Of a stretch of DNA of 48,726 bases, positions 1,660 to 48,179 are shown one piece after another. The notes under the pieces are model-generated. The model searched no databases. It had not been told where the DNA came from and worked only from the letters and a program-made list of their open reading frames with translations. The position numbers and the translations under genes were made by a program. The stretch's first letter is position 1. The number at the start of each line of letters is the position of its first letter. Location: contig NCEV01000007.1 in assembly GCA_002280875.1 (NCBI GenBank), positions 21,395 to 70,120 on the forward strand. Direction: 5' to 3'. Origin of the DNA: Caulobacter sp. 32-67-35. Lineage in GTDB: Bacteria > Pseudomonadota > Alphaproteobacteria > Caulobacterales > Caulobacteraceae.

Positions 1660-2298
1660 ATGAGCCAGCCGATGATCGTGGACGTGGTCGCCGACGTTGT
1701 GTGTCCGTGGTGCTATCTGGGCTGGCGACGCGTGAAGGCGGCCGTGGCCCTGCGCCCGGATATCGAGGCCAAGCTGGTCTGGCGGCCCTATCAGCTGGAC
1801 CCGACGATTTCCGAGCAAGGCGTTGATCGCAAAGCCTATATGGCGGCCAAGTTCAAGGACTCGGAACGGCTGCGAGCGGTGCACGACGCTCTGGTCACGG
1901 GCGGCGCCGATGACGGGATCACCTTCAACTTCGACATCATCGAAAAGTCGCCCAACACCAACGCCGCGCACCGACTGATCCGCTGGGCGCTGACCGCCGG
2001 CGTCCAGGACGCCGTGGTTGAGGCGCTGTTCGCGGCCTACTTCACACAAGGTCGCGACATCGGCGATCCCATGGTGCTGGCCGATATCGCCGAGGCGGCG
2101 GGCATGGAGCGCCTGGTCGTGCTGCAACTGCTGTCCGAAGGCGCCGACAAGGAGTCGGTGACCCGCGAGCACTCCATGGCGGTGCAGGGCGGCGTCACCG
2201 GCGTGCCCTATGTGATCTTCGGCGGCAAGGTCGCGGTCGTCGGGGCGGAATCGCCTGAACGGATCGCCGAGGCCATCGATCAGGCTCTGAGCGCCTAG
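1660..2298 (+). CDS. DsbA-family (FrnE-like) thioredoxin-fold oxidoreductase
   Basis: A 212-aa soluble protein of the DsbA/FrnE/2-hydroxychromene-2-carboxylate isomerase-like family. The CPWC redox motif is at residues 15-18, after the first beta strand, followed by the helical insertion (about 60-160). The cis-proline loop GVPYVIF and the C-terminal strand/helix come near residue 185. No signal peptide is visible, so a cytoplasmic thiol-disulfide role is likely; the substrate is unknown. Its GAGG ribosome site overlaps the popA stop codon, so the two are probably cotranscribed. Its TAG stop lies in a CTAG palindrome that is also the stop of the convergent gene. Confidence 0.85.
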   Translation: MSQPMIVDVVADVVCPWCYLGWRRVKAAVALRPDIEAKLVWRPYQLDPTISEQGVDRKAYMAAKFKDSERLRAVHDALVTGGADDGITFNFDIIEKSPNTNAAHRLIRWALTAGVQDAVVEALFAAYFTQGRDIGDPMVLADIAEAAGMERLVVLQLLSEGADKESVTREHSMAVQGGVTGVPYVIFGGKVAVVGAESPERIAEAIDQALSA

Positions 2299-3056
2299 GG
2301 CAGCTTGCCCTCATCGGCCAACATCCTGGCCGCAGCATCGAATCCGGCCCACGCGGCGCCCGCCAGGGCCGCGCCGACGCTGACCCGACGCACGCCGACA
2401 TCCGCCAGCGGCGCGACCGACTGGCCGGGCCAGGCCATCAGGACGTTCACGGGCCTCGGAGCCACCGCCTTGACGATCTCCGCGACGGCGGCGATGTCGA
2501 TCACCCCGGGCGCGTACAGGCAGTCAGCGCCGGCCTCGGCATAGGCGACAAGACGGTCGATGGTCGGCGACAGATCCTTGCGACCGATCAGGAAGCCTTC
2601 CGTTCGCCCGACCAGGATCACGTCCGCGCCGCTGGCGTCGATGGCGGCCCGGGCGGCCTTGATCCGCTCCACCGCGACTGAAGTCTCGTAAAGCTCACGT
2701 CCGACGCGATCCTCGATGGACAGACCCGCGACGCCCGTCTCGACGGCGAGCCGCACACTTTCGGTGACGCCTTCAGCGGTGTCGGCGAAGCCCGCTTCGA
2801 AGTCGGCGTTCACCGGGAGGTCGGTGGCCGCGCAGAGCATGCGCAGGTGGTCCAGCACCTGCTCGCGGGTCAGGCCGCCATCGTCCTGGCCCAGCGCCCA
2901 TGCCGCGCCGGCGCTGGTCGAGGCCAAGGCCTTGAAGCCGAGCTTTTGCAAGCGCTTGGCGCTTCCGGCGTCCCAGGGGTTGGGCAGGGTGAAGCAGCCA
3001 TCGGCATGCAGGTCGCGAAAGGCGGCGCGGCGGGCGGCGAGATCGGTCGACGACAT
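2295..3056 (-). CDS. Isocitrate lyase/PEP mutase family protein
   Basis: A 253-aa TIM-barrel enzyme of the ICL/PEP phosphonomutase superfamily (oxaloacetate decarboxylase/carboxyvinyl-phosphonate phosphorylmutase-like). Recognisable elements are the N-terminal LPNPWDAGSA loop, the metal-binding DFEAGF motif near residue 85, GLSIEDR near 114 and VGRTEGF near 150. It lacks the longer lid of true isocitrate lyase, and the substrate cannot be assigned. ATG at 3056 is preceded by GGAGG at 5 bp. It is convergent with the FrnE-like gene, overlapping it by 4 bp, and lies 60 bp downstream of comEC on the same strand. Confidence 0.85.
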   Translation of the reverse strand: MSSTDLAARRAAFRDLHADGCFTLPNPWDAGSAKRLQKLGFKALASTSAGAAWALGQDDGGLTREQVLDHLRMLCAATDLPVNADFEAGFADTAEGVTESVRLAVETGVAGLSIEDRVGRELYETSVAVERIKAARAAIDASGADVILVGRTEGFLIGRKDLSPTIDRLVAYAEAGADCLYAPGVIDIAAVAEIVKAVAPRPVNVLMAWPGQSVAPLADVGVRRVSVGAALAGAAWAGFDAAARMLADEGKLP

Positions 3057-3116
3057 GGAATCCTCCGAGTTTCGCCAGAGATAGCGGCTGGTCGTGACAG
3101 TAAGTGGCAGCAGCTG

Positions 3117-5186
3117 TCAGCGCGGCGCGGACCATGGCCGTCGTCCGCGCAGTGGCTGAGCCCATACAATCCACCAGGTCTCGTCGCGGCGATAGAGTTC
3201 GGCCGCGCCGCCCCGGGCGAAGTCCTCTCCGGTCAGCACAATGCGATCCGAACAACCGGCGGGCGTGACGCTCGCAAAGCCTCCCCGCAGGACGACGATC
3301 TCGGCGCCTGCGCACAGCTCGCCGAGCGCTGGCTCCGGGAGATCCTTGCGGCTCCACGACAGGGCCATGGCGACCGGCGCTGTAGCTTCCGGCCGACAGG
3401 CATAGCCCGAACAGGCGAAGCCTCGTGTCTCGCCAATCACCAGTCCGCGTCGTCGCGCCCAGAGTTCGGCGCCGAAGCGCCGGTTGTCGGGTCGCAGGAG
3501 AATTGCTTCACCGCCGTGTCGAACAGCGGCCGTCGCGCCGTCAGAGGCGATCCAGACATCCGGCGCCGTCGGCCGAGGCCAGAGGGCGACGGCCATGGCA
3601 AGAGGCGCGCCCAGCCAACGCAGGCGGCCGCTCCAAAGGCACAGCATCATCAGGCCAAGGAAGGCGACCACCAGCGTAAACGGCGGACCGCTGGCGATCA
3701 CGGCCTGTCCGCCAAGCGCTTCGAACTTCCGGGCCACGGAGACCATCGCCTTGACGCCCCATCCGGCGATCCGCAGGAAGGGCTCGCCCCAGCCCACGCT
3801 CTCCAGCGCCGTGCCGATGGCCAGGAAGGGCATGATCACGAAGGATGACAGCGGGGCCACGATCAGATTGGCCGGCAAGCCCCAGATGGCGACGCGGTTG
3901 AAATGCTGCATGGCGAAAGGACCGGTCGCCAGGCCCGCAACGAAGCTTGCGCCGACACTGACGGCAAGCCAGGCGCCGACCGCCTGGATCGCGCGGATCA
4001 GCCAGGGCACCGAGATCTCGCGCATCGGCCTTGGCCAGGCTTCGGCCAGGGCGATCAGGGCTGCGGTGGCCGCGAAGGACATTTGAAATCCCGGCGCGCC
4101 GGCGGCCTCGGGCTGACGCGCCAGGATGATCAACGCGGCCAGGGCCAGGCCGTGCAGTGTCACCGCTTGCCGGTCGAACAAAATGGCCGCGAAGGCCACG
4201 CTGGCGGTGATGGCCGCGCGCTCGGCCGGCGGCGGCGCGCCGGAGATCACCAGATAGATGGCCACCGCGACCAGGCCGGTCACCGCGGCGATCTTCTTGC
4301 CCGGCGCACGCAGGGCCATCCAGGGCCAGGCCGCGATCACAAGACGGGTCACGCCAAAGACGAAGCCGCCCACGATGGCCATGTGCAGGCCCGAGATCGA
4401 CAGGATATGCGCCAGACCCGAGGCGCGCATGGCTTCGGTCTGTTCCGGCGTGATCCAGGCCTCGTGGCCGGTGACCATGGCCGCACCGATACCGCCGCTT
4501 TCCGGGCCCATATGGGCGACGAGCCGCTCGGCCAGACGCCAGCGAAAGGCGTTGACGGCCATCGTGACCCGCAGTCGCCACGGCGGCGGCTCCAGCTCTG
4601 TGAGACTGATGTCGCCCAGCGAAAACCCGACGGCCCCGACCGCGTTGAACCAGGCGTCGCGGGCGAAGTCGTACGAACCTGGCGCGGCCGGCGGCGGCGG
4701 CGGTCCCAGAATCGCCCGAAACCGCACGGCGTCGCCCGGCTCGACCCGATCGATGGCGTCGATGGTCACCCGGACCCGTTTGGGTGTGGCCTCCGGCGCG
4801 AGACCACCGATGGCGACGGGCGCGATGAGCAGTCGAGGTCCGCCCGCGCCCGGACTGACGACATCGACCACGAAGCCCTCCAGGCGGCGCGGCGCGCGTT
4901 CCCCGTCAATGACGGGCGCGGCGACCCGATCGCTGCGGATCTTCGCCGCCAACCCACCGGCCATCATGAAGGCAAGCAGGGCAGCCAGAACGATCAGGAT
5001 TCGCGGTGAAGCGCGCGATAGCCACCACAGGGCCACCCCACTCCCGGCCAGGAGCACCAGGAGCGTCAGCGGGGGCTCGACTGGCGCTTCAAGATAGCCG
5101 GCCGCGCCCAACCCGAACCAGACCGGACTCCACAGGACCCAGCGATCCAGATTGGCGCTCGTCTCATCGCGGATGACGCGGAACAT
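3117..5186 (-). CDS. comEC: ComEC/Rec2-family DNA-uptake channel protein
   Basis: Polytopic inner-membrane protein of the ComEC/Rec2 family, thought to carry transforming DNA across the inner membrane. A DUF4131-like N-terminal part with three or four membrane segments is followed by the Competence domain, marked by GHEAWI and LSISGLHMAI near the middle. Many hydrophobic helices follow to about residue 530. The C-terminal ~150 residues do not contain the HxHxDH metallo-beta-lactamase motif of Gram-positive ComEC. The open frame continues upstream to 5555, but that part overlaps gltX. The first ATG outside gltX is at 5186 (689 aa, weak SD), so the start is tentative. It is divergent from gltX. 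Confidence 0.85.
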   Translation of the reverse strand: MFRVIRDETSANLDRWVLWSPVWFGLGAAGYLEAPVEPPLTLLVLLAGSGVALWWLSRASPRILIVLAALLAFMMAGGLAAKIRSDRVAAPVIDGERAPRRLEGFVVDVVSPGAGGPRLLIAPVAIGGLAPEATPKRVRVTIDAIDRVEPGDAVRFRAILGPPPPPAAPGSYDFARDAWFNAVGAVGFSLGDISLTELEPPPWRLRVTMAVNAFRWRLAERLVAHMGPESGGIGAAMVTGHEAWITPEQTEAMRASGLAHILSISGLHMAIVGGFVFGVTRLVIAAWPWMALRAPGKKIAAVTGLVAVAIYLVISGAPPPAERAAITASVAFAAILFDRQAVTLHGLALAALIILARQPEAAGAPGFQMSFAATAALIALAEAWPRPMREISVPWLIRAIQAVGAWLAVSVGASFVAGLATGPFAMQHFNRVAIWGLPANLIVAPLSSFVIMPFLAIGTALESVGWGEPFLRIAGWGVKAMVSVARKFEALGGQAVIASGPPFTLVVAFLGLMMLCLWSGRLRWLGAPLAMAVALWPRPTAPDVWIASDGATAAVRHGGEAILLRPDNRRFGAELWARRRGLVIGETRGFACSGYACRPEATAPVAMALSWSRKDLPEPALGELCAGAEIVVLRGGFASVTPAGCSDRIVLTGEDFARGGAAELYRRDETWWIVWAQPLRGRRPWSAPR

Positions 5187-10204: not shown

Positions 10205-11380
10205 TCAGGCCGGCCGCGCCCGGGCCAGAAAGGCGATCAGGGCGTCGGCGGCGGCTTCCGACGGGTCGGGCATCCCCCGGCCCATCCGGTCAAGTGCGGC
10301 GCTCTGCTCTGCGGCCTGATCCCTGCGAAGGGCTGGATTGTCCAGGCGAACGGCGACAGCCTTGGCCAGCGCTTCGCCCGTCAACGCATCCTGCAGATAC
10401 TCGGGCGCGACGGCCTTCCCGGCCGCGATGTTCAGCAGGGTGACCCAGCGCGGCTTGAACAGCAGCTTCAGGAGGCCGTAGGTAACAGCTCCGGTGCGAT
10501 AGCCTACGACCATCGGGCAGCCGGCAAGGGCGAGCTCGGTCGTCACGGTGCCGCTGCAGGCCAGGGCGACTGTCCCGGCGACCATGGCGTCGTCCTTCAG
10601 CGCCTCGTCCTCGATCACGTGCGCGCGGAACGGCCAGCCCGCGACCTGCGCCTTGACGGACTCGGCGACCGTGGACGCAGCCGGAACGACCACGGCAAGG
10701 TTCGGACGAGCGTCTTTCAGCCTGCGGACGGCGTCCTCGAAGACCGGCATCACGCGCTCGATCTCGGAAGGGCGGCTGCCTGGCAGGACCAGCAGGACTG
10801 GATCGTCGGGCGAAAGGCCGATGGCGGTGCGCAGCCTGGCCGGATCGGCCCTGCTGAAGTCCTTGGCCAGAGCGGAATTGCCGACAAAGACGCTGTCCAG
10901 ACCCGCGCGATCGAAGAACGGCTTGTCCATCGGCTGGATCGAGAGAAGCAGGTCCACGGCTTTCGCCAGTCCCCGCGCGCGACCAGGCCTGTAGGCCCAG
11001 ACCTGCGGCGCGACATACTTCACCAAGGGCAGCGCCGGGTTCTGTCGACGCAGGGCATGGGCGAGCCGGATATTGAATCCCCAGGAATCGATCAGGACGG
11101 CCACGTCGGGCTTTTCCCGGTCCGCCAGGGCCAGGGTGTCCTTCAGGCGCGCCATGGCCCGGGGATAGGCCTTGACGCTCTCCAGGATCCCGATGATCGA
11201 CAACTGGGCGATATCGAAGGGGCTCTGGATCCCCTCGGCCGCCATCTTGGCCCCGCCAACGCCCACGAAGCGCACCGCATGGTCGCCGAGACGGGCCTTC
11301 AGAGCCCTGGCAAGGCCGGCGCCCAGAGCGTCGCCCGAAGCCTCCGCCGCCACCAGCATGACCGTCAGGGGACGGGTCAC
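10205..11380 (-). CDS. lpxB: Lipid-A-disaccharide synthase
   Basis: GT19 glycosyltransferase joining UDP-2,3-diacylglucosamine and lipid X into the lipid A disaccharide at the inner face of the inner membrane. 391 aa. The N-terminal AAEASGDALGA motif, the FVGVGGAKM segment, APQVWAYRPGR and the LPGSRPSEI nucleotide-binding loop are all present. The start is GTG at 11380, overlapping the lpxI stop (GTGA), so translation is coupled. It is the last gene of the lpxD-fabZ-lpxA-lpxI-lpxB series. Confidence 0.96.
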   Translation of the reverse strand: MTRPLTVMLVAAEASGDALGAGLARALKARLGDHAVRFVGVGGAKMAAEGIQSPFDIAQLSIIGILESVKAYPRAMARLKDTLALADREKPDVAVLIDSWGFNIRLAHALRRQNPALPLVKYVAPQVWAYRPGRARGLAKAVDLLLSIQPMDKPFFDRAGLDSVFVGNSALAKDFSRADPARLRTAIGLSPDDPVLLVLPGSRPSEIERVMPVFEDAVRRLKDARPNLAVVVPAASTVAESVKAQVAGWPFRAHVIEDEALKDDAMVAGTVALACSGTVTTELALAGCPMVVGYRTGAVTYGLLKLLFKPRWVTLLNIAAGKAVAPEYLQDALTGEALAKAVAVRLDNPALRRDQAAEQSAALDRMGRGMPDPSEAAADALIAFLARARPA

Positions 11381-12219
11381 GCCGGGCCTCCGGGTTCCAC
11401 CCCCACGATGAACAGTCCCAGATCGTCGGCGCAGGCGATCACGGCCTCGCGGTCCACCACAAGCAGGCGGCCGGCTTCGCCGACTATGCCCGCAAGGCCT
11501 GCCCGCGCCGCGCGCTGCAGGGTGGCGACGCCGATGGTCGGCAGATCGACCCGGGTTTCCTGGATGGGCTTTGGGGCCTTGGCCAGCACGCCGCGTCGCC
11601 CTTCGGCCGAGCCGCGAATGGCCTGGGGCAGGTCCGCGACGCGCCGGAGCATGGCGTCGGTGCCCTCCTGGGCCTCGACGGCCAGCACCAGGCCCTCGCA
11701 GACGACCGCGCCCTGCCCTACATCCAGCTTGCCGATCTCTCGCGCGACCAGAAGCGCCCGGTCGATGTCGGACTGATCCTGCGGTCGGGGCCTATGCGCT
11801 CCGAGCGCGCCAAGCGGCAGGGTCATCTCGCCGACGACCTCGTGCGCGCCCTCGATGGCGAAGCCTTCCTTCTCGAACTCAAGCAGCAGACGCCGCAACA
11901 GGGCGTCATCACCCTGGCGCGCGGCCTTGATCAGGCCGGGGATGACGGCCACGCCGCGCAGGTCGGGCATGATGGCCGCGAAATCGGGGCGCTCGACGGT
12001 GCCAGCGAAGCAGACGACCTCGCAGCCTTCAGCCTTGAGCGCCTTGAACACCTTGCCGAACTCGCCAAGGCCCACTTCAACGCCGCGATAACGGGCCAGC
12101 GCCGGATCGGCGAAGCTGCGCAGCCGCATCACGGCGAAGGGCCGTCCCGCAGCCTCGCAATGGGCCGCCAGTTCGACGGGTAGCGCGCCCCCGCCGGCGA
12201 TCAGACCAAGCTTGCGCAT
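11377..12219 (-). CDS. lpxI: UDP-2,3-diacylglucosamine pyrophosphatase LpxI
   Basis: Hydrolyses UDP-2,3-diacylglucosamine to lipid X and UMP, replacing the unrelated LpxH. 280 aa, of the former DUF1009 family. The N-terminal GLIAGGGALPVELA nucleotide-binding loop is followed by an all-alpha/beta catalytic half containing QETRVDLPTIG, where the family's catalytic aspartate lies. LpxI was first characterised in Caulobacter crescentus, between lpxA and lpxB as here. ATG at 12219 lies 9 bp after the lpxA stop. Confidence 0.95.
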   Translation of the reverse strand: MRKLGLIAGGGALPVELAAHCEAAGRPFAVMRLRSFADPALARYRGVEVGLGEFGKVFKALKAEGCEVVCFAGTVERPDFAAIMPDLRGVAVIPGLIKAARQGDDALLRRLLLEFEKEGFAIEGAHEVVGEMTLPLGALGAHRPRPQDQSDIDRALLVAREIGKLDVGQGAVVCEGLVLAVEAQEGTDAMLRRVADLPQAIRGSAEGRRGVLAKAPKPIQETRVDLPTIGVATLQRAARAGLAGIVGEAGRLLVVDREAVIACADDLGLFIVGVEPGGPA

Positions 12220-13023: not shown

Positions 13024-13496
13024 TTGGTCGGCGTCTCAACCACCATGGCGGCGAACTCGGCTTCGGCGGCGACCTTGTCGTTGACCCTGGCCACGCCCTT
13101 GAACTTGAAAATGGTCGAGCGCGAGCGGGTCACCTCGACCTCCATACGGATCACGTCGCCGGGGCGCACGGGATTGCGGAAGCGGGCGTTGTCGACCGAC
13201 ATGAAGAAGATGGTCTTGCCCTCGGTGTCGACTTCCAGCGACTTGCTCATCAGGATCGCGCCCGTCTGGGCCATGGCCTCAATGATCAGTACGCCCGGCA
13301 TCACCGGATTGCCCGGGAAGTGACCCTGGAAGAAAGGCTCGTTGATCGTCACGCACTTGATGCCGACGATCGATTTGTGCGGGTGATAATCTTCGGCGCG
13401 ATCCACCAGCAGGAAAGGATAGCGGTGCGGAATCCTGGCCAGGATTTCGGCGATATCGATATCGGTTTGCGCCGGTTCGGCGGCATCTTGGCCCAT
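13020..13496 (-). CDS. fabZ: 3-hydroxyacyl-ACP dehydratase
   Basis: Hot-dog-fold dehydratase of fatty-acid elongation, 158 aa. The catalytic histidine is in [13 protein letters not shown] and the glutamate in IIEAMAQTG. The open frame extends upstream to 13754 inside lpxD, but the conserved N-terminus and an AAGGGG SD about 7 bp upstream support ATG at 13496. This start lies 2 bp beyond the lpxD stop. Its position between lpxD and lpxA reflects the shared 3-hydroxyacyl-ACP pool. Confidence 0.96.
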
Positions 13497-38314: not shown

Positions 38315-39754
38315 TCACGCGTGGCCAAAGGCCGCGGCTGCGGCCTTTGCGGCCGGGTCGAGCCAGATCAGCGCGACCAGCACCACCGGGAAGGCGAAAA
38401 GGGCGGCGGCGAAACCGACGGCACGCGCCGCCGGGGCCGGAGCATCGACGGCGCCCTTTGAAGCGTCGAACCAGATGCTCTTGATCAGGCGCAGATAGTA
38501 GAAGGCGCCAACGACGCTGCCGACCAGACCGAGAACGGCGGCCCACTGCATCATCACGTCGCCCGTGCCGAGCGCGGCCTTGAAGACATAGAACTTCGAC
38601 CAGAAGCCCGAGAACGGCGGCAGGCCCAGGGCCGACAGCGAGAACGCGGTCATGGCCAGGGCGATACCCGGCCGTTCCTTGATCAGGCCGGCCATGTCCT
38701 CAATGGTCTCCATCGGCTTGCCATCGCGGCTCAGGGCCTGGAGGCAGGCGAAGAAGCCGGTGACGTCGACCATATAGAGGATCATGAAGACCAGCATGGC
38801 GTGCAGGCCAGCCTCGCCGCCGGTGGCGACACCCAGCAGGGCATAGCCGACATTGGCGATCGAGCTATAGGCCCACAGGCGCTTGAGGTTGGTCTGGGCC
38901 AGGCCCGCGAAGGCGCCGACAAAGACCGAGATCAGGGCGGCGATCACCAGCACCTGGCGCCATTGGGCCACCGAGTCCGGGAAGGCGTCACCCAGCACGC
39001 GGGCGAACATCATCATGGCGGCCAGCTTCGGCGCGGCGGCGAAGAAGCCGACGACCGGGGTTGGCGCGCCTTCATAGACGTCCGGCGTCCACATGTGGAA
39101 CGGCGCGGCCGAGACCTTGAACGCCAGACCGCAGATCAGGAACACCAGGCCAAACAACAGGCCCACGCCGTGCGCGTCATGAGCGGCGGCGGCGATGTCG
39201 GCAAACCGGGTCGAACCGGCGAAACCGTAGATCAGCGACGAGCCATAGAGCAGCAGGCCCGACGACAGGGCGCCCAGCACGAAATACTTTAGGCCCGCTT
39301 CGGAGGCCTTGGCGTCGTCGCGACGGAAGGCCGCCAGGACGTAGAGCGCCAGCGATTGCAGTTCGACGCCGATATAGAGGCTGATCAGGTCGCCAGCCGA
39401 CGCGGTGACGCCCATGCCCAGCGCCGCCAGGATCACCAGAACGGCATACTCGAACTTCTGGTCGTTGCGCTGGGCCAGCCAGCGGTCTCCCAGCACGATG
39501 CCGACCGCGCTGGAGAAGAAGATTGCGACCTTGGCGTAGGTCGCCGCCGCATCGGCCGAATAGACGCCGTTGAAGGCGTGACCGTGTGGGCCCATCACGG
39601 CCGCCACAGCCGCCGCGATCAGGGCCGCGACACTGGCCAGCGTGAAAGCGGCGGTGACACGCCCCTGAAAGGCGCCCCAGACCAGCAGGGCAAGGGCCGA
39701 AACCGCGAGGATGACCTCAGGCAGGATCAGCGAAAGATTGGCTGAAAGCGTCAT
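38315..39754 (-). CDS. nuoN: NADH-quinone oxidoreductase subunit N
   Basis: Antiporter-like, proton-translocating membrane subunit of complex I. 479 aa, about 14 transmembrane helices. Family features include GVELQSLALYVLAAFRR, KYFVLGALSSGLLLYG and the KVSAAPFHMWTPDVYEGAPTP motif with the key lysine. ATG at 39754 has a GAGGGA SD 5 bp away; in-frame codons to 39793 overlap nuoM and are rejected. Confidence 0.96.
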   Translation of the reverse strand: MTLSANLSLILPEVILAVSALALLVWGAFQGRVTAAFTLASVAALIAAAVAAVMGPHGHAFNGVYSADAAATYAKVAIFFSSAVGIVLGDRWLAQRNDQKFEYAVLVILAALGMGVTASAGDLISLYIGVELQSLALYVLAAFRRDDAKASEAGLKYFVLGALSSGLLLYGSSLIYGFAGSTRFADIAAAAHDAHGVGLLFGLVFLICGLAFKVSAAPFHMWTPDVYEGAPTPVVGFFAAAPKLAAMMMFARVLGDAFPDSVAQWRQVLVIAALISVFVGAFAGLAQTNLKRLWAYSSIANVGYALLGVATGGEAGLHAMLVFMILYMVDVTGFFACLQALSRDGKPMETIEDMAGLIKERPGIALAMTAFSLSALGLPPFSGFWSKFYVFKAALGTGDVMMQWAAVLGLVGSVVGAFYYLRLIKSIWFDASKGAVDAPAPAARAVGFAAALFAFPVVLVALIWLDPAAKAAAAAFGHA

Positions 39755-39761
39755 CAGTCCC

Positions 39762-41246
39762 TCACCCGGCCACGGCGGCGCGCCAGGCGCCAACCAGCGC
39801 GTCGACGGACGACGCGGTCAGGTCAAATACGAAATTCGGATAGATGCCGAGCACCAGGGTCGAGATGATCAGCGGGGCGAAGATCAGGATCTCGCGCTTG
39901 TCGAGATCGGTGATCGTCTTGAGCTCGGGATTGACGATCTCGCCGAACATGACCCGGCGATAGAGCGTCAGGGCATACATCGCCGACAGGATCACGCCGC
40001 TGGCCGCGAACAGGGCCGTCCAGGTCGAGACCTGGTAGACGCCGGTCATGGTCAGGATTTCGCCGACGAAGCCCGAGGTGCCCGGCAGGCCGACATTGCC
40101 CATGGTGAACAGCAGGAAGGTCGCCGCGTACCAGGGCATGCGGTTGGTCAGGCCGCCATAGAAGGCAATCTCGCGGGTGTGCATGCGGTCATAGACGACG
40201 CCGACGCAGAGGAAGAGCGCGCCGGAGATCACGCCGTGGCTCAGCATCTGGAAGATGGCGCCCTGCTCGCCGGCCGCATTGCCCGAGAAGATACCCATGG
40301 TCACAAAGCCCATGTGGGCGACCGACGAATAGGCGATCAGCTTCTTGATGTCGGTCTGACGGAAGGCGACCAGCGAGGTGTAGACGATGGCGATGGCCGA
40401 CATCGTGAACACCAGCGGCTGGAACATCTCCGAGGCATTGGGGAACATCGGCAGGCTGAAGCGCATGAAGCCGTAGCCGCCCATCTTCAGCAGGATACCC
40501 GCCAGGATGACCGAACCGGCTGTCGGCGCCTCGACGTGGGCGTCGGGAAGCCAGGTGTGAACCGGCCACATCGGCATCTTGACCGCGAAGCTGGCGAAGA
40601 AGGCCAGCCACAGCCAGGTCTGCAGCCAGGGCGCAAACTTGAAGGCCATCAACTCGGGGATCGAGGAGGTACCGGCGATGGTGATCATCGCCAGGATCGC
40701 CGCCAGCATCAGCACCGAACCAAGCAGCGTGTAGAGGAAGAACTTGTAGGCCGCGTAGACGCGACGCTTGCCGCCCCAGATCCCGATGATCAGGAACATC
40801 GGCACCAGGCCGCCTTCGAAGAACAGGTAGAAGAGGATCAGGTCCAGGGCGCAGAACACGCCGATGACCAGGGTCTCCAGCACCAGGAAGCAGATCATGT
40901 ACTCCACGATCCGCTTGTCGATCGACGTCCAGCTGGCCAGGATACAGATCGGCAGCAGGAACGCCGTCAGCAGGACAAACAGGATCGAGATCCCGTCCAC
41001 GCCCATGCGGTAGTGCAGGCCCGCAAACCAGGCGAAGTCTTCCACGAACTGGAAGCCGGGGTTTGCCGCGTCAAACTGCGCGACCATCACGATCGACAGC
41101 GCGAAGGTCACCAGGGTGGTCGCCAGGGTGATCCACTTGGCCAGATTGTCGGTGGCCGCGTTGTCGCCCCTGATCGCGCGAACCGCCAGAAGGACGGCCA
41201 CGCCAGCGAGCGGGGCGAAGGTGGTGAGGCTGAGAAGGCCGGTCAT
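39762..41246 (-). CDS. nuoM: NADH-quinone oxidoreductase subunit M
   Basis: Antiporter-like membrane subunit of complex I, 494 aa. The conserved glutamate-bearing helix near residue 145, [25 protein letters not shown] (the key Lys helix) and [12 protein letters not shown] are intact. ATG at 41246 has a GAGGA SD 7 bp away. The frame upstream to 41333 overlaps the nuoL 3' end. Complete, in contrast to nuoL next to it. Confidence 0.96.
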
Positions 41247-41256
41247 CGATCCGTCC

Positions 41257-43309
41257 TCAACGGAAGGCGTAAAGAGCGAAGCCAAGCAGGCCGGCGACGC
41301 CGAGCAGCATGACAAACGCATAGTGATAGACATAACCGGTCTGGAGCTTGCCGGTCCGGCGGCCGACCTCGTAGCTCACGGCGCTGACGCCGTCTGGCCC
41401 GAAGCCGTCGATGATCTTCTGGTCCCCGCCCTTCCAGAACAGGTCGCCGAGGAACTTGGCGAACCGCACGAAAGTGGCCTGATACAGCTCGTCGAAGAAC
41501 CACTTGTTATAGAAGAACACGTACAGCGGGCCATTGCGGGCCGCGAGCTTGGCGCCCAGGCCTTCCTTCAGGATGTAGACGTAGAAGGCGCCCAGCAGAC
41601 CCAGCACCGAAGCAACCAGCGGCGCCCATTTCACCCAGGTCGGAACCTCGTGGGCGTCGTGCAGCACATGGTTGGTCGGGGCGTTGTAGATGGCGCCGCG
41701 CCAGAACTCTTCCTGGTGGTGACCCACGAAGTAGTCGACGAAGACGAAACCGGCCAGGACGGCGCCGATCGACAGCACCACCAACGGGAACAGCATGATC
41801 AGCGGGCTCTCATGCGGCTTGTGGTCATGCCCGTGGCCATGATCGTCGTGACCGTGATCATCCGAAGCGTGGGCAGCATGGTCGTCGTGCGCATCGTGGC
41901 CATGATCGTCATGTCCCCAGCGCGCGTGGCCGTTGAAGGTAAAGAAGGCCAGGCGCCAGGAATAGAAGGCGGTCAGGCCGGCCACCAGCAGGCCGATCAC
42001 GAAGGCGAACATGGCGATCGAATTTTCGCCGCCCGCGGCGAAGGCCGCCTCGATGATGGTGTCCTTCGAGTAGAAGCCCGCAAAGCCCAGGTGCAGCGGC
42101 GGGAAGCCGAGGCCCGTGATCGCAATGGTGCCGATGGTCATGGCGATGAAGGTCACCGGCAGCAGCTTGGCCAGGGCGCCGTAGCGACGCATGTCCTGCT
42201 CGTGGTGCATGCCGTGGATCACCGAACCGGCACCCAGGAACAGCAGCGCCTTGAAGAAGGCGTGGGTGAACAGGTGGAACATCGCCGCCTGATAGGCGCC
42301 GATACCCGCCGCGAAGAACATGTAGCCCAGCTGCGAACAGGTCGAATAGGCGATGACCCGCTTGATGTCGTTCTGGGTCAGGCCGACCGTGGCGGCGAAC
42401 AGGGCGGTGACCGCGCCGATCACCGTGACGATGTTCTTGGCGACGGGGGCGTATTCGAACATCGGCGACAGCAGGCACAACATGTAGACGCCAGCAGTGA
42501 CCATGGTCGCCGCGTGGATCAGGGCCGAGACCGGGGTCGGGCCTTCCATGGCGTCCGGCAGCCAGGTGTGCAGGAAGAACTGCGCCGACTTGCCCCGACT
42601 TGCCCATCGCGCCGATGAACAGCAGGAAACAGGCGATATCCATCAGCGGCCAGGTGTGGCCCGCGAATTCCCAGGTGCGGCTGGCGGCGCCGGCAATCTG
42701 CGGGAACAGCTCGGCGAACTGGATCGTGCCGAACGCCCAGTAGGTGGTCATGATGCCCAGGGCGAAACCGAAGTCGCCCACGCGGTTGACCACAAAGGCC
42801 TTGATGGCGGCGGCGCTGGCGGTCGGCTTCTTGAACCAGAAGCCGATCAGCAGATACGAGGCCAGGCCCACCCCTTCCCAGCCGAAGAACAGCTGCATGA
42901 AGTCGGCGGCGGTGACCAGCGACAGCATGGCGAAGGTGAACAGCGACAGATACGCGAAGAAGCGCGGCTTGCTGTCGTCCTCGGCCATGTAGCCCCAGGA
43001 ATAGATGTGCACGAGGGCCGAGACCGTCGTGACCACGATCAGCATCACGGCCGACAGGGCGTCGATGCGGATCGACCAGTTGGAGATGAAATCGCCGATA
43101 TGGATGAACGGCAGCAGGGTGACCGTGAAGGCCTCCATGTGGCCCCAGGTCCACTGGCTGAACACGTACCAGGACAGGCCGCAGGCCAGCACCAAAGCAC
43201 CGGTGGTGATCGCCTGCGAGGCCACATCGCCGATGCGCCGGCCAAACAGGCCCGCGATGATCGCCGCGACCAGCGGGGCGAAGAGAATAAGGGTGACTAT
43301 CGTCTGCAT
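41257..43309 (-). pseudogene. nuoL: nuoL, complex I subunit L, frameshifted by a 10-bp tandem duplication
   Basis: Complex I antiporter-like subunit with the lateral helix. Starting at ATG 43309, about 235 residues read as normal NuoL, ending in FIGAMGKSG. The frame then shifts and runs about 230 unrelated residues to a stop at 41909. The rest of NuoL resumes in another frame from about 42580, including [21 protein letters not shown]. The break coincides with an exact 10-bp tandem repeat at 42585-42604. The span is 2053 bp; deleting one copy gives 2043 bp (680 aa), a normal NuoL. Everything else looks intact, so this is a recent mutation, a slippage variant or a sequence error. Confidence 0.9.
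42585..42604. repeat. 10-bp tandem duplication in nuoL
   Basis: CCGACTTGCC at 42585-42594 is repeated immediately at 42595-42604. One copy must be removed to keep the NuoL frame through the conserved [18 protein letters not shown] stretch. Confidence 0.97.
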
Positions 43310-43317
43310 GACGTCGC

Positions 43318-43623
43318 TTAGCCCTTCATCATGCTGGCGTCGTCAACCGCGATATCGCCGCGGTTTCGGAAGAAGGTGACGAGAATGGCGAGGCCCACGG
43401 CCGCCTCGGCGGCGGCGACGGTCAGCACGAACATCGCGAAGATCTGGCCGACCACGTCGTGCAGATAGACCGAGAACGATACCAGATTGATGTTCACCGC
43501 CAGCAGGATCAACTCGACCGACATCAGGATGACGATGATGTTCTTGCGGTTCACGAAGATGCCGAAGACGCCGATCGTGAACAGGATCGCGGCGACGACG
43601 AGATAGTGCGACAGGCCGATCAT
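43318..43623 (-). CDS. nuoK: NADH-quinone oxidoreductase subunit K
   Basis: Small MrpC-like membrane subunit of complex I. 101 aa with three transmembrane helices. The conserved acidic residue lies in [15 protein letters not shown] and the second in [11 protein letters not shown]. Its ATG overlaps the nuoJ stop (ATGA), and its stop lies 8 bp before the nuoL start. Confidence 0.97.
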
Positions 43624-44231
43624 TCGGAGATCCCCTCACCCGGCTTGATCTGAACCAGTTCCATGCCGGTCTTCGGCGAGCGGGCGACCTGGTCGGCGAT
43701 GTTCTGGCGACGCACGCCCGGCTTGTGGCGCAAGGTCAGCACGATGGCGCCGATCATGGCCACCAGCAGGACCAGGCCTGCCAGCTGGAAGAAGAACGCG
43801 TAGTCGGTGTAGAGCACCCGCCCGATCGCCTCGGTGTTGCTGACGCCTTCGGGCGAGGCCATCGGATTGGCGTTCTGGCCTGCCTTGCCGTTGTTGGCGA
43901 CCGTCGCCGCAACGAAGATCATCTCCAGCGTCAGCACGCCCGCGACCAGACCGCCGATCGGGAGGTACTGGGCAAAGCCCTTGCGAAGCTCCTCGAAGTC
44001 GACGTCGAGCATCATGACGACGAACAGGAACAGCACCGCGACCGCGCCCACATAGACGACGATCAGCAGCATCGCGAGGAACTCCGCGCCCAGCAGCACG
44101 AAGAGGCCGGCGGCCGAGAAGAAGGCGGTGATCAGGAAGAGCACCGAGTGCACGGGATTTCGCGCCGAGACGACGAGGATACCCGCCGCCAGCGTCACAA
44201 AGGCCAGCAAATAGAAAGCGATCGCCTGCAA
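43620..44231 (-). CDS. nuoJ: NADH-quinone oxidoreductase subunit J
   Basis: Membrane subunit of complex I with five transmembrane helices, including the conserved [20 protein letters not shown] pi-bulge helix. The frame is open to a GTG at 44258. However, a TTG at 44231 has a GGGGAG SD 5-6 bp upstream and gives the usual NuoJ N-terminus (QAIAFYLLA). I therefore prefer TTG (203 aa); GTG 44258 would add nine residues without an SD. It is separated from nuoI by about 77 bp. Confidence 0.93.
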
Positions 44232-44308
44232 GGCTGCTCCCCTGAAATCAACATTCACGACGACGGCGCCGACCGGCGCATCGCCCCCTTCGGATTCGCG
44301 TCCCGTCC

Positions 44309-44800
44309 TTAACGGTAAGGCGCGTCCAACTCCAGATTCTTCGCGATCAGACGTTCCCAGCGGTCGCCGTTATCGAGAAGCCGTTCCTTGTCGTAATAGA
44401 GTTCTTCGCGGGTTTCGGTCGCAAACTCGGTGTTCGGCCCTTCCACGATGGCGTCCACCGGGCAGGCCTCCTGGCACAGGCCGCAGTAGATGCACTTGAC
44501 CATGTCGATGTCGTAGCGGGTCGTACGGCGGCTGCCGTCCTCGCGCGGTTCGGCTTCGATGGTGATGGCCTGGGCGGGGCAGATGGCCTCGCACAGCTTG
44601 CACGCGATGCAGCGCTCCTCGCCCGACGGATAGCGACGCAGGGCGTGCTCGCCCCGGAAGCGCGGCGACTGCGGGTTGCGCTCGTTGGGATAGATAACGG
44701 TCTTCTTCGGCGCGATCATGTATTTCATCGCGAGGCCAAAGGCCCCGGCGAAGTCGAGAAGGGCCGCGCCCTTAATCGCCTGGGAAATGCGTTGCATCAT
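44309..44800 (-). CDS. nuoI: NADH-quinone oxidoreductase subunit I
   Basis: Ferredoxin-like complex I subunit carrying clusters N6a and N6b. 163 aa. The two 4Fe-4S motifs, [12 protein letters not shown] and [12 protein letters not shown], are complete. ATG at 44800 lies 5 bp after the stop of the lipoprotein gene. A TTG at 44809 in the same frame is less likely. The length fits the family. Confidence 0.96.
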
Positions 44801-44805
44801 GGCCG

Positions 44806-45045
44806 TCAATCACCCTTCGGAATGACGCAGGTGTAGTTTGAAAGCTGGGCGGGATCTCCCCCGTCCTGCTTGGCTTGCAGAGCTCCGCCCTCGACCTTGC
44901 ACTTGTCGCCGGCCCGGCGGAGTTCGTCATAGTTCACAACGCCACGCCCCAGCGAATAGGACTTATCCGACGCCGTCGTCGCCGAACAGGCGGCGAGCGA
45001 GGCGACGCTCAGGCCCAACAGGGCGAAGGCGGTTTGGCGGTTCAT
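44806..45045 (-). CDS. Small putative lipoprotein inside the nuo operon
   Basis: A 79-aa protein with a type II signal peptide: basic MNRQ, a hydrophobic stretch, then the lipobox SLAAC (Cys near residue 20). The mature part has two more cysteines (CKVEGG and NYTC), which may form a disulfide. Its ATG overlaps the nuoH stop by one base (TGATG) and nuoI follows after 5 bp, so it is part of the operon. I do not recognise the family. The open frame upstream to 45321 is antisense-like overlap with nuoH and is rejected. Confidence 0.8.
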
Positions 45046-46112
45046 CACGCGCCCGGACCAAACACGCGCCAGGCTGCGACCAGAACGACCAGAACCAGCG
45101 ACGTCGGCAGGAACACCTTCCAGCCCAGCCGCATCAGCTGGTCGTAGCGGTAGCGCGGCACGATGGCTTTCGCCATGGCGATCATGAAGAACCAGAAGCA
45201 GATCTTGGCGAAGAACACCAAGGCCAGGAAGAAGTTGCCCCACCAGCCCCAGCTCACCAGGAAATCGGTCGGGAAACCGGGGTTCCAACCGCCGAAGAAC
45301 AGGACGCTGATCATCGCGCACATCAAGACGATGTTGGAATATTCAGCGACCATGAACAGCAGGTACGGGGTCGAGCTGTACTCGACCTGATAGCCGGCCA
45401 CGAGTTCGGATTCGGCTTCGGGAAGGTCGAACGGAGGGCGGTTGGTCTCGGCCAGGGCCGAGATGTAGAACATGCCCATGGCGATCACCATCACGGGCAG
45501 CAGGACCAGGTTCCTGAGGCCGCCGCCAAAGACGTTCCAGTTCCAGAACCAGCCGGACTGGGCTTCCACGATGGTCGTCAGGTTCATCGAACCGGCCAGC
45601 AGGATCACCGTGATGATGATCAGGCCGATCGAGACTTCGTACGAAACCATCTGGGCCGCCGAGCGCAGGGCGCCCAGGAACGGATACTTCGAGTTCGAAG
45701 CCCAGCCGCCCATGATGATGCCATAGACGCCCAGCGAACTCATCGCCAGCAGGTAGAGGATGCCGACGTTCAGGTTGGAGACGACCCAGCCCGGAGCGAA
45801 CGGAATGGCCGCCCAGCCGACAAAGGCCAGAACCAGGCTGAGCAACGGCGCCAGGATGAAGACCACCTTGTCGGCGCCGGCCGGGATGATGATTTCCTTC
45901 AGCACGAACTTGAAGAAGTCGGCGAAGGACTGCAGCAGGCCGAACGGACCCACCACGTTGGGGCCCTTGCGCATCTGCACGCCGGCCCAGATCTTGCGGT
46001 CGGCCAGCAGCAGGAAGGCCAGACTCAGCAGCACCCAGATCACGACCAGCAGGATCCCGCCGGTCGTCAGCAGGGTCCAGGTCACGGCGGGGTTGGAGAA
46101 GAACTCGCTCAT
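45045..46112 (-). CDS. nuoH: NADH-quinone oxidoreductase subunit H
   Basis: Membrane subunit forming much of the quinone-binding chamber of complex I. 355 aa, about eight transmembrane helices. Conserved features are [22 protein letters not shown], the [20 protein letters not shown] loop and [15 protein letters not shown] at 46112 lies 6 bp after the nuoG stop. Confidence 0.97.
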
Positions 46113-46118
46113 GTCGGC

Positions 46119-48179
46119 CTACTCCGCCGCGATCTTGGCTGCGCCCGAGGTCACGGCCGCGCATTCGGCCATGGTCACGCTGGCGCGCGCGATGGGATTG
46201 GTCAGGTGGAAGGCCTTGATGGCGTTCTCGAACGGCGTATCGGCCAGCTCGCCGGCGCCGCCGAGGGCTGCGACGTCAAACGCGGTCGGGATCGTGCCCG
46301 GCGCGAAGTCGATCTGGCCGAAAGTAGGGTGATCGGCGAACAGCCTGGCGCGCAGTTGGTCCAGGCTGTCATAGGGCAGCTTGTGGCCGAGGATTTCCGA
46401 CAGAGCCCGCAGGATCGACCAGTCTTCCTTGGCCTCGCCCTTCGGGAACACCGCCCGTTCGCCCATCTGGACGCGGCCTTCGGTGTTCACATAGAGGCCG
46501 TTCTTCTCGGTATAGGCCGCGCCCGGCAGGATGACGTCGGCCTTGTGCGCGCCGGCGTCGCCGTGGGTGCCCAGATAGATCTTGAAGGCGTCCGAGGCGG
46601 CAGTCTCGCACTCGTCGGCGCCCAGCAGGAACAGCACGTCCAGCGCGCCCGGCTTCAGCATCTGGCCAGCGGTCAGGCCGCCCTCGCCCGGGACGAAGCC
46701 CATGTCGAGACCCGCGACGCGCGAGGCGGCGGTGTGCAGGACGTTCCAGCCGTTCCAGCCGGACTTCACGACGTTGAACGTCTTGGCCACGCCAGCGGCG
46801 GCCTTGAGCACGGCCGCGCTGTCGGCGCGGGTCAGAGCGCCCTGGCCAATGATGATGGCGGGGCGCTCGGCGTTCTTCAGAGCGGTGACGAAGTCGGACT
46901 TGCTCTTGGCCAGACCCGACAGGCTCTTCGTGCCCGCGCCGAGATAGTCGTATTCGTAGGTCAGGTCGCCCTGCTCGCCGATCAGGCCGATGCGGACCTT
47001 GCCAGCCAGCCACTGCTTGCGCAGACGGGTGTTGAGCACCGGCGCTTCGACGCGCGGGTTCGTGCCAACCAGCAGGATGACGTCGGCGTTTTCGATGCCA
47101 GCGATCGTCGAATTGAACAGCCAGCTCTCGCGCGGACCGTCGCCCAGCGCCACGCCGTCCTGGCGGGCGTCGAGGTTCTTCACGCCCAGGGCGGTGAAGA
47201 GGTCCTTGGTGGCCTTCAGGCTTTCGGCGTCCTGCAGGTCGCCGGCGATGACGCCGATGCGCTCTGGCGCGGTCGCCTTGATCTTCTCGGCCACGGCCGC
47301 GAAGGCCTGACCCCAGGTCGCGGGCTGCAGGCGGCCGCCGATGCGGACATAGGGACGGTCCAGACGCTGGCGCTGCAGGCCATCAACGGCGTAGCGCGTC
47401 TTGTCGGAGATCCACTCCTCGTTGACGTCCTCGTTGACGCGCGGCAGCACGCGGAGCACCGCGGCGGCGCGGCTGTCGACGCGGATCGCCGAGCCTAGCG
47501 CGTCCATCACGTCGATGCTCTCGGTCTTCTTCAGCTCCCAGGGCCGCGCCTCGAAGGCGTAGGGCTTGGAGGTCAGGGCGCCGACCGGGCAAAGGTCGAT
47601 CACGTTGGCGCTCAGTTCCGACGTCACCGCCGCGCCGAGATAGGTCATGATTTCCACGTCTTCGCCGCGCGAGATCAGACCGATTTCCGGCGAGCCGGCG
47701 ACTTCAGTGATGAAGCGAACGCAGCGCGTGCACTGGATGCAGCGCGTCATCACGGTCTTGATGAGGGGGCCCATGGCCTTCTCTTCAACCGCGCGCTTGT
47801 TCTCTTCGTAGCGGCTGTCGTCGCGGCCATAGCCCATGGCCTGGTCCTGCAGATCGCACTCGCCGCCTTGGTCGCAGATCGGGCAATCCAGCGGGTGGTT
47901 GATGAGCAGGAACTCCATCACCCCTTCGCGGGCCTTCTTGACCATCGGGGTCTTGGTGAAGATCTCCTGGCCCTCGGCGGCCGGCAGGGCGCACGACGCC
48001 TGCGGCTTCGGTGGACCAGGCTTCACCTCGACCAGGCACATCCGGCAGTTGCCGGCGATGCTGAGACGCTCGTGATAGCAGAAGCGAGGGATCTCTTCCC
48101 CAGCCAGTTCCGCGACCTGCAGAACCGTCATGCCGGGCTCGAACTCGACCTCGACGCCGTTGACCTTGGCAGTAGCCAT
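46119..48179 (-). CDS. nuoG: NADH-quinone oxidoreductase subunit G
   Basis: Iron-sulfur subunit of the peripheral arm, 686 aa. The N-terminal 2Fe-2S domain has the ligands in FCYHERLSIAGNCRMC. The His-ligated cluster motif is HPLDCPICDQGGECDLQ, then CIQCTRC. The C-terminal half is a molybdopterin-oxidoreductase-like domain without obvious metal-cofactor function, as is usual. ATG overlaps the stop of the upstream coiled-coil gene by one base (TAATG). Confidence 0.97.
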   Translation of the reverse strand: MATAKVNGVEVEFEPGMTVLQVAELAGEEIPRFCYHERLSIAGNCRMCLVEVKPGPPKPQASCALPAAEGQEIFTKTPMVKKAREGVMEFLLINHPLDCPICDQGGECDLQDQAMGYGRDDSRYEENKRAVEEKAMGPLIKTVMTRCIQCTRCVRFITEVAGSPEIGLISRGEDVEIMTYLGAAVTSELSANVIDLCPVGALTSKPYAFEARPWELKKTESIDVMDALGSAIRVDSRAAAVLRVLPRVNEDVNEEWISDKTRYAVDGLQRQRLDRPYVRIGGRLQPATWGQAFAAVAEKIKATAPERIGVIAGDLQDAESLKATKDLFTALGVKNLDARQDGVALGDGPRESWLFNSTIAGIENADVILLVGTNPRVEAPVLNTRLRKQWLAGKVRIGLIGEQGDLTYEYDYLGAGTKSLSGLAKSKSDFVTALKNAERPAIIIGQGALTRADSAAVLKAAAGVAKTFNVVKSGWNGWNVLHTAASRVAGLDMGFVPGEGGLTAGQMLKPGALDVLFLLGADECETAASDAFKIYLGTHGDAGAHKADVILPGAAYTEKNGLYVNTEGRVQMGERAVFPKGEAKEDWSILRALSEILGHKLPYDSLDQLRARLFADHPTFGQIDFAPGTIPTAFDVAALGGAGELADTPFENAIKAFHLTNPIARASVTMAECAAVTSGAAKIAAE

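Follow-up and report, generated by a model that had tools for sequence, protein, structure and literature searches.

The genome of Caulobacter sp. 32-67-35, as deposited, carries the gene for complex I subunit L (nuoL) in two pieces, which raises the question of whether this organism has lost a working complex I or whether the break exists only in its draft assembly. The window examined here is the whole stretch of 48,726 nucleotides that holds the gene. A sequence-only reading of it had called nuoL broken and offered three explanations, namely recent inactivation, a reversible slipped-strand switch of respiration, or an assembly or sequencing error. The break is a property of the record and may not exist in the organism itself. 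Of the three explanations, an assembly error is the best supported, because further conserved genes of the same assembly, its sole carB match among them, are disrupted by private indels that shift the frame. Recent inactivation is possible, and the switch lacks support beyond the repeat itself.

The split nuoL gene and its neighbours

Two copies of the 10-base unit CCGACTTGCC lie head to tail at positions 42585–42604, and the perfect period-10 run extends to 42605 (21 bases, 2.1 copies). The 20-mer formed by both copies occurs once in the whole assembly. As the earlier reading had recognised, this exact duplication falls inside the GAMGKSAQFF segment of nuoL, which is encoded on the minus strand, and it cuts the gene into two pieces that lie in different frames and are each otherwise undamaged. 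The N-terminal frame departs from NuoL past the first GKS, and the phase of G+C content by codon position shifts by one across the duplication. One report describes Lys229 of NuoL as strictly conserved (PMC13358369), and we read the GKS lysine of this segment as its equivalent.

The affected span (41257–43309) measures 2053 bases, and the prediction that deletion of one copy restores a 680-codon NuoL is arithmetically correct. In the record, the reading frames differ on either side of 42585–42605. The N-terminal part (42606–43309, minus strand) is an intact frame of 234 residues that matches positions 2–228 of the NuoL profile TIGR01974 (E = 4.1e-91), as well as Pfam Proton_antipo_N and the start of Proton_antipo_M. 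This frame then reads an out-of-frame tail (41909–42584, minus strand) up to its stop codon, yielding an ORF of 466 amino acids at 41909–43309. The C-terminal part (41257–42584, minus strand) occupies the shifted frame and matches positions 245–629 of TIGR01974 (E = 9.8e-158); its frame is open from 42642, with an in-frame ATG at 42549 from which 430 residues could be translated. In a search of the whole assembly, the pieces cover positions 2–236 and 229–629 of the 630 in the profile with no internal stops, in agreement with the claim that both halves are otherwise sound. With 567.6 bits, the second piece exceeds the cut-off of 407.5 by itself and is thereby recognised as NuoL. An imperfect 24-base tandem repeat is also present in the N-terminal part of the gene (42911–42959), where the frame remains open.

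We considered whether a second nuoL gene might render the split copy dispensable. This was rejected, as a TIGR01974 search of the assembly recovers a single nuoL, and its other two matches are the neighbouring nuoN and nuoM genes. The window reaches the end of its contig of 70,120 bases, and the nuo genes covered are nuoG–K, L, M and N. All seven neighbours are on the minus strand and are full length as judged by their profiles: nuoN (38315–39793; NF004440, 645.9 bits, cut-off 519), nuoM (39762–41333; NF004499, 868.9 bits, cut-off 585), nuoK (43318–43623; NF004323, 170.9 bits, cut-off 89), nuoJ (43620–44258; NF005164, 287 bits, cut-off 154), nuoI (44309–44809; NF004539, 317.7 bits, cut-off 225), nuoH (45045–46112; NF004745, 532.6 bits, cut-off 450) and nuoG (46119–48179; TIGR01973, 755.7 bits, cut-off 470.05). 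Within nuoG there is an exact 12-base tandem repeat (47416–47439), whose unit is a multiple of three and leaves the frame unchanged.

The nuoL site in related genomes

For comparison, we retained the best 80 of 583 related stretches, a collection from which very near records may be missing. A total of 111 nuoL loci were aligned, of which two are the window's own and 109 come from relatives; these relative loci were drawn from two collections, and some species are possibly counted twice. The first 13 of the 80 stretches (L002–L014), all but one titled Caulobacter, are 83–90% identical to the N-terminal piece. The duplication site is spanned by the alignments of 107 of the 109 relative loci, the exceptions being L031 and L055. 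Every one of these 107 loci, which come from several genera, exhibits 10 gap columns at the duplication and no insertion. In comparison with these relatives, the second copy is therefore confined to this assembly. GAMGKSAQFF is found exactly in 106 of the 109 relative loci (our search pattern went unmatched in L028, L031 and L050).

The comparison reveals a single copy throughout the spanning loci and no shared two-copy state. A conserved, programmed feature at this site is rejected on the same grounds. Given its absence from all spanning relatives and the accompanying shift in G+C phase, the duplication is more than a chance feature of the sequence. However, the nearest genome at the nuoL site among 60 relatives searched is 93% identical, and none of the 60 belongs to the same species; the duplication could thus be characteristic of the species as a whole.

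Other frame-breaking indels in the assembly

The assembly comprises 4,100,120 bases in 163 contigs, with 96.31% completeness and 1.79% contamination. A search for a 16S gene found none in it, using a method that detected the gene in only nine of 14 control genomes. We screened 1,146,173 bases in 79 stretches including the window (about 28% of the assembly); nine of these stretches consist of N throughout, and within other screened contigs there are three short runs of N (37, 15 and 33 bases). Such short runs fit scaffolding, and could represent either masking or scaffold gaps.

Exact tandem pairs of 10-base units are not commoner here than in a relative assembled as one contig, with five in the first 844,310 screened bases versus three in 400,000 bases of the relative, and the repeat count alone is unexceptional. 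The screen returned 10 exact tandem repeats whose unit is at least 10 bases long and not a multiple of three. For five of them (the nuoL site and those in stretches L116, L129, L164 and L165), codon phase agrees best at a non-zero shift, and only the nuoL site and L165 combine a position inside a gene with the shift expected from the unit. The L116 repeat has the expected shift, but relatives are about equal in length there; relatives are likewise about equal in length at the L129 repeat, which lacks the expected shift. Both were judged natural and were rejected as private lesions. The L164 repeat is, on our reading, near the start of a gene.

The repeat in L165 (positions 13072–13111 of that stretch, contig C47) is an exact 20-base tandem duplication that divides a multicopper-oxidase gene between two frames, the first matching Cu-oxidase_3 and the second Cu-oxidase and Cu-oxidase_2 of Pfam. 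The site is spanned by 17 of 19 relative loci, all without the duplication: 16 lack 20 bases, one of these having a single extra base nearby, and the remaining locus lacks 19.

Two further genes are too short rather than too long. The sole carB match of the assembly (L130, positions 1909–5168, contig C13) is 94 bases short and changes frame at the deficit, its pieces corresponding to residues 1–391 and 428–1053 of the 1058 in the carbamoyl-phosphate synthase large subunit. There are 94 more bases between the pieces in all 20 measurable relative loci (21 were fetched, and 34 relatives matched). A flagellin gene (L232, positions 11318–12054, contig C50) is 85 bases short in comparison with 13 of 21 relative loci. 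Of the other eight, five have 94 more bases and the remaining three have 136, 1185 and 1192 more, respectively, the last two probably because neighbouring copies were spanned. Flagellin paralogues on contigs C133 and C134 of the same assembly have 85 more bases by their coordinates, and the neighbouring C50 copy has 46 more; the deficit possibly reflects a collapse among flagellin copies. Since flagellin length varies in this manner, we consider this case weaker than that of carB.

The frame survey on which we rely compared the assembly with the ORFs of the one-contig relative (G003), with 800 kb sampled. Among 79 comparable ORFs, it yielded six rows with a split frame, namely nuoL, carB, the L232 flagellin twice, L134 and L174, and the first four of these rows, representing three loci, were confirmed by further relatives. 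The other two, L134 (4418–5094) and L174 (8916–9684), are additional possible frame breaks with respect to the one-contig relative. The reverse survey produced five rows from 81 ORFs. One recovers the carB break in the opposite direction, and the other four, which extend no further than residue 97 of a stop-to-stop frame, are probably upstream sequence. Surveys requiring stricter overlap (40 comparable ORFs with one split row, and 85 with five) both missed the known positive, nuoL. The forward part of another survey (135 ORFs with nine rows; 126 with six in reverse) likewise failed to recover nuoL, and its output includes noisy rows, some of them probably due to antisense frames. Additional candidate rows came from L225 in the 85-ORF survey and from L141, L147 and L228 in the 135-ORF survey. 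A reverse row of the 85-ORF survey (L147 against L279) may reflect an internal break in the relative.

An assembly error or a genuine lesion

On the basis of these sequence comparisons, we think it likely that the nuoL duplication is a contig-joining or gap-closing error of the draft and is absent from the DNA of the organism. If the ends of two sequences overlapped by 10 bases and were simply abutted, with the overlap left unmerged, a tandem duplication of exactly the overlap length would result. The 20-base duplication in the multicopper-oxidase gene could have arisen from the same kind of fault, and gaps that were closed too short might explain the loss of 94 bases from carB and of 85 from the flagellin gene. 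The actual cell would then produce an ordinary, full-length NuoL. An artefact should be private to one assembly, as is the case here for all spanning loci, and should be accompanied by similar faults in unrelated conserved genes, a role for which we infer that the oxidase, carB and flagellin indels qualify. Moreover, profile matches reveal no other damage in either nuoL piece or in the seven nuo genes nearby. Cooley and Wright (2024, PMC11017572) report that assembly errors account for many of the pseudogenes that bacterial assemblies appear to contain. A literature search on tandem duplications and frameshifts as assembly errors in genome bins found no paper, and those listed by a related one (10 of 26) concern eukaryote assemblies.

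The most serious competitor is a real and recent mutation, wherein replication slippage created the 10-base duplication in the sequenced lineage and thereby inactivated complex I. Short exact tandem duplications are an ordinary type of spontaneous mutation, which counts against an artefact, and pseudogenes do exist in real genomes, just as some bacteria dispense with complex I. The change is exact, single and free of other damage, as would be expected were it very recent, and the unremarkable number of exact 10-base tandem pairs in the assembly also agrees with a mutational origin. Despite these points, we judge this explanation to be rather unlikely. The 21-base run implies only one base of flanking homology, and thus slippage would not have been strongly templated. 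The organism would also have lost its sole carB match. The joint loss of complex I and carB seems implausible for a free-living Caulobacter, a lifestyle that we assume from the genus, and the fresh loss of NuoL, the sole carB and two more genes by clean indels seems less likely than local errors in joining.

A genuine lesion would also place the burden of NADH oxidation on another enzyme. With E. coli Ndh as the query, no NDH-2 match was found at E <= 1e-10 in the assembly, which is 96% complete, and nqrA was not found by a search that detected it in four of 14 control genomes, one of them above the cut-off. An NDH2_C search likewise gave no match in the assembly, and gave none in its E. coli control. 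Hence no other NADH:quinone dehydrogenase was evident from the Ndh and nqrA searches at the thresholds used, which may favour the artefact over a real mutation. This argument is tempered by the outcome of the same Ndh search in 22 genomes of the genus, where 16 have strong matches (E below 1e-90), one has a weak match and five, like this assembly, have none at E <= 1e-10; NDH-2-like dehydrogenases are therefore patchy across the genus.

Evidence that complex I is needed comes from Caulobacter crescentus. The CauloKO paper calls the nuo operon CC_1950–CC_1956 essential, although the reference given for this statement deals with complex I of E. coli. Insertions there are rare rather than absent (one per 1,250 bp, compared with about one per 278 bp overall), and this scarcity speaks against a tolerated lesion. 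PMC3751524 assigns nuoG to CC_1946 and nuoI to CC_1942. Given that nuoL comes after both in the gene order seen here, it should lie outside CC_1950–CC_1956, and the need for nuoL is extrapolated from complex I as a whole. Our literature search, which did not extend to a 2011 essential-genome paper, turned up no report that identifies nuoL as an essential Caulobacter gene. Taking these observations together, we regard it as quite improbable that this is a Caulobacter truly deprived of complex I by a fresh 10-base duplication, with another route for NADH oxidation and possibly a revertible lesion.

The proposal that the repeat serves as a contingency locus, switching respiration on and off by slipped-strand mispairing, fares considerably worse and we consider it very remote. 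Perfect 10-base tandem pairs are able to contract, which is the one point in its favour. Against this, the second copy is seen in none of the 107 spanning loci from several genera and copy number does not vary among relatives, the tract has 2.1 copies rather than several units, and the site is a nearly constant protein segment. Least credible of all is the notion of a functional NuoL assembled from two separately translated parts or produced by +1 ribosomal frameshifting. Each of the two frames is open, and an ATG is available to the second at 42549, but on our reading that start omits part of the conserved-lysine segment at which the break falls, frameshifting would still add three extra residues there, and no spanning relative shows the split.

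A real lesion would point to a Caulobacter that manages without complex I and in which we could find no substitute. More likely, it exemplifies the false appearance of core-gene inactivation that a draft assembly can create, a matter of consequence wherever respiration or gene loss is deduced from such records.

With these considerations in mind, the locus can be compared with three known systems. It resembles the NuoL subunit of complex I (TIGR01974; Pfam Proton_antipo_M) in that its two parts jointly cover nearly the whole profile and lie among nuo neighbours, and it differs by the private 10-base split that is missing from all spanning relatives. Slipped-strand contingency loci similarly place within a coding frame a tandem unit whose length is not divisible by three, whereas the nuoL repeat has 2.1 copies, has no counterpart in the relatives examined and resides where the sequence of a housekeeping gene is constant. 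There is also a likeness to the spurious pseudogenes of draft assemblies (PMC11017572), where single indels likewise disrupt the frame of conserved genes that are otherwise intact. That study works from pseudogene counts, reassembly and simulated reads, and its passages pertinent here make no mention of tandem duplications, as observed in nuoL; in our case we infer the cause from comparison with relatives.
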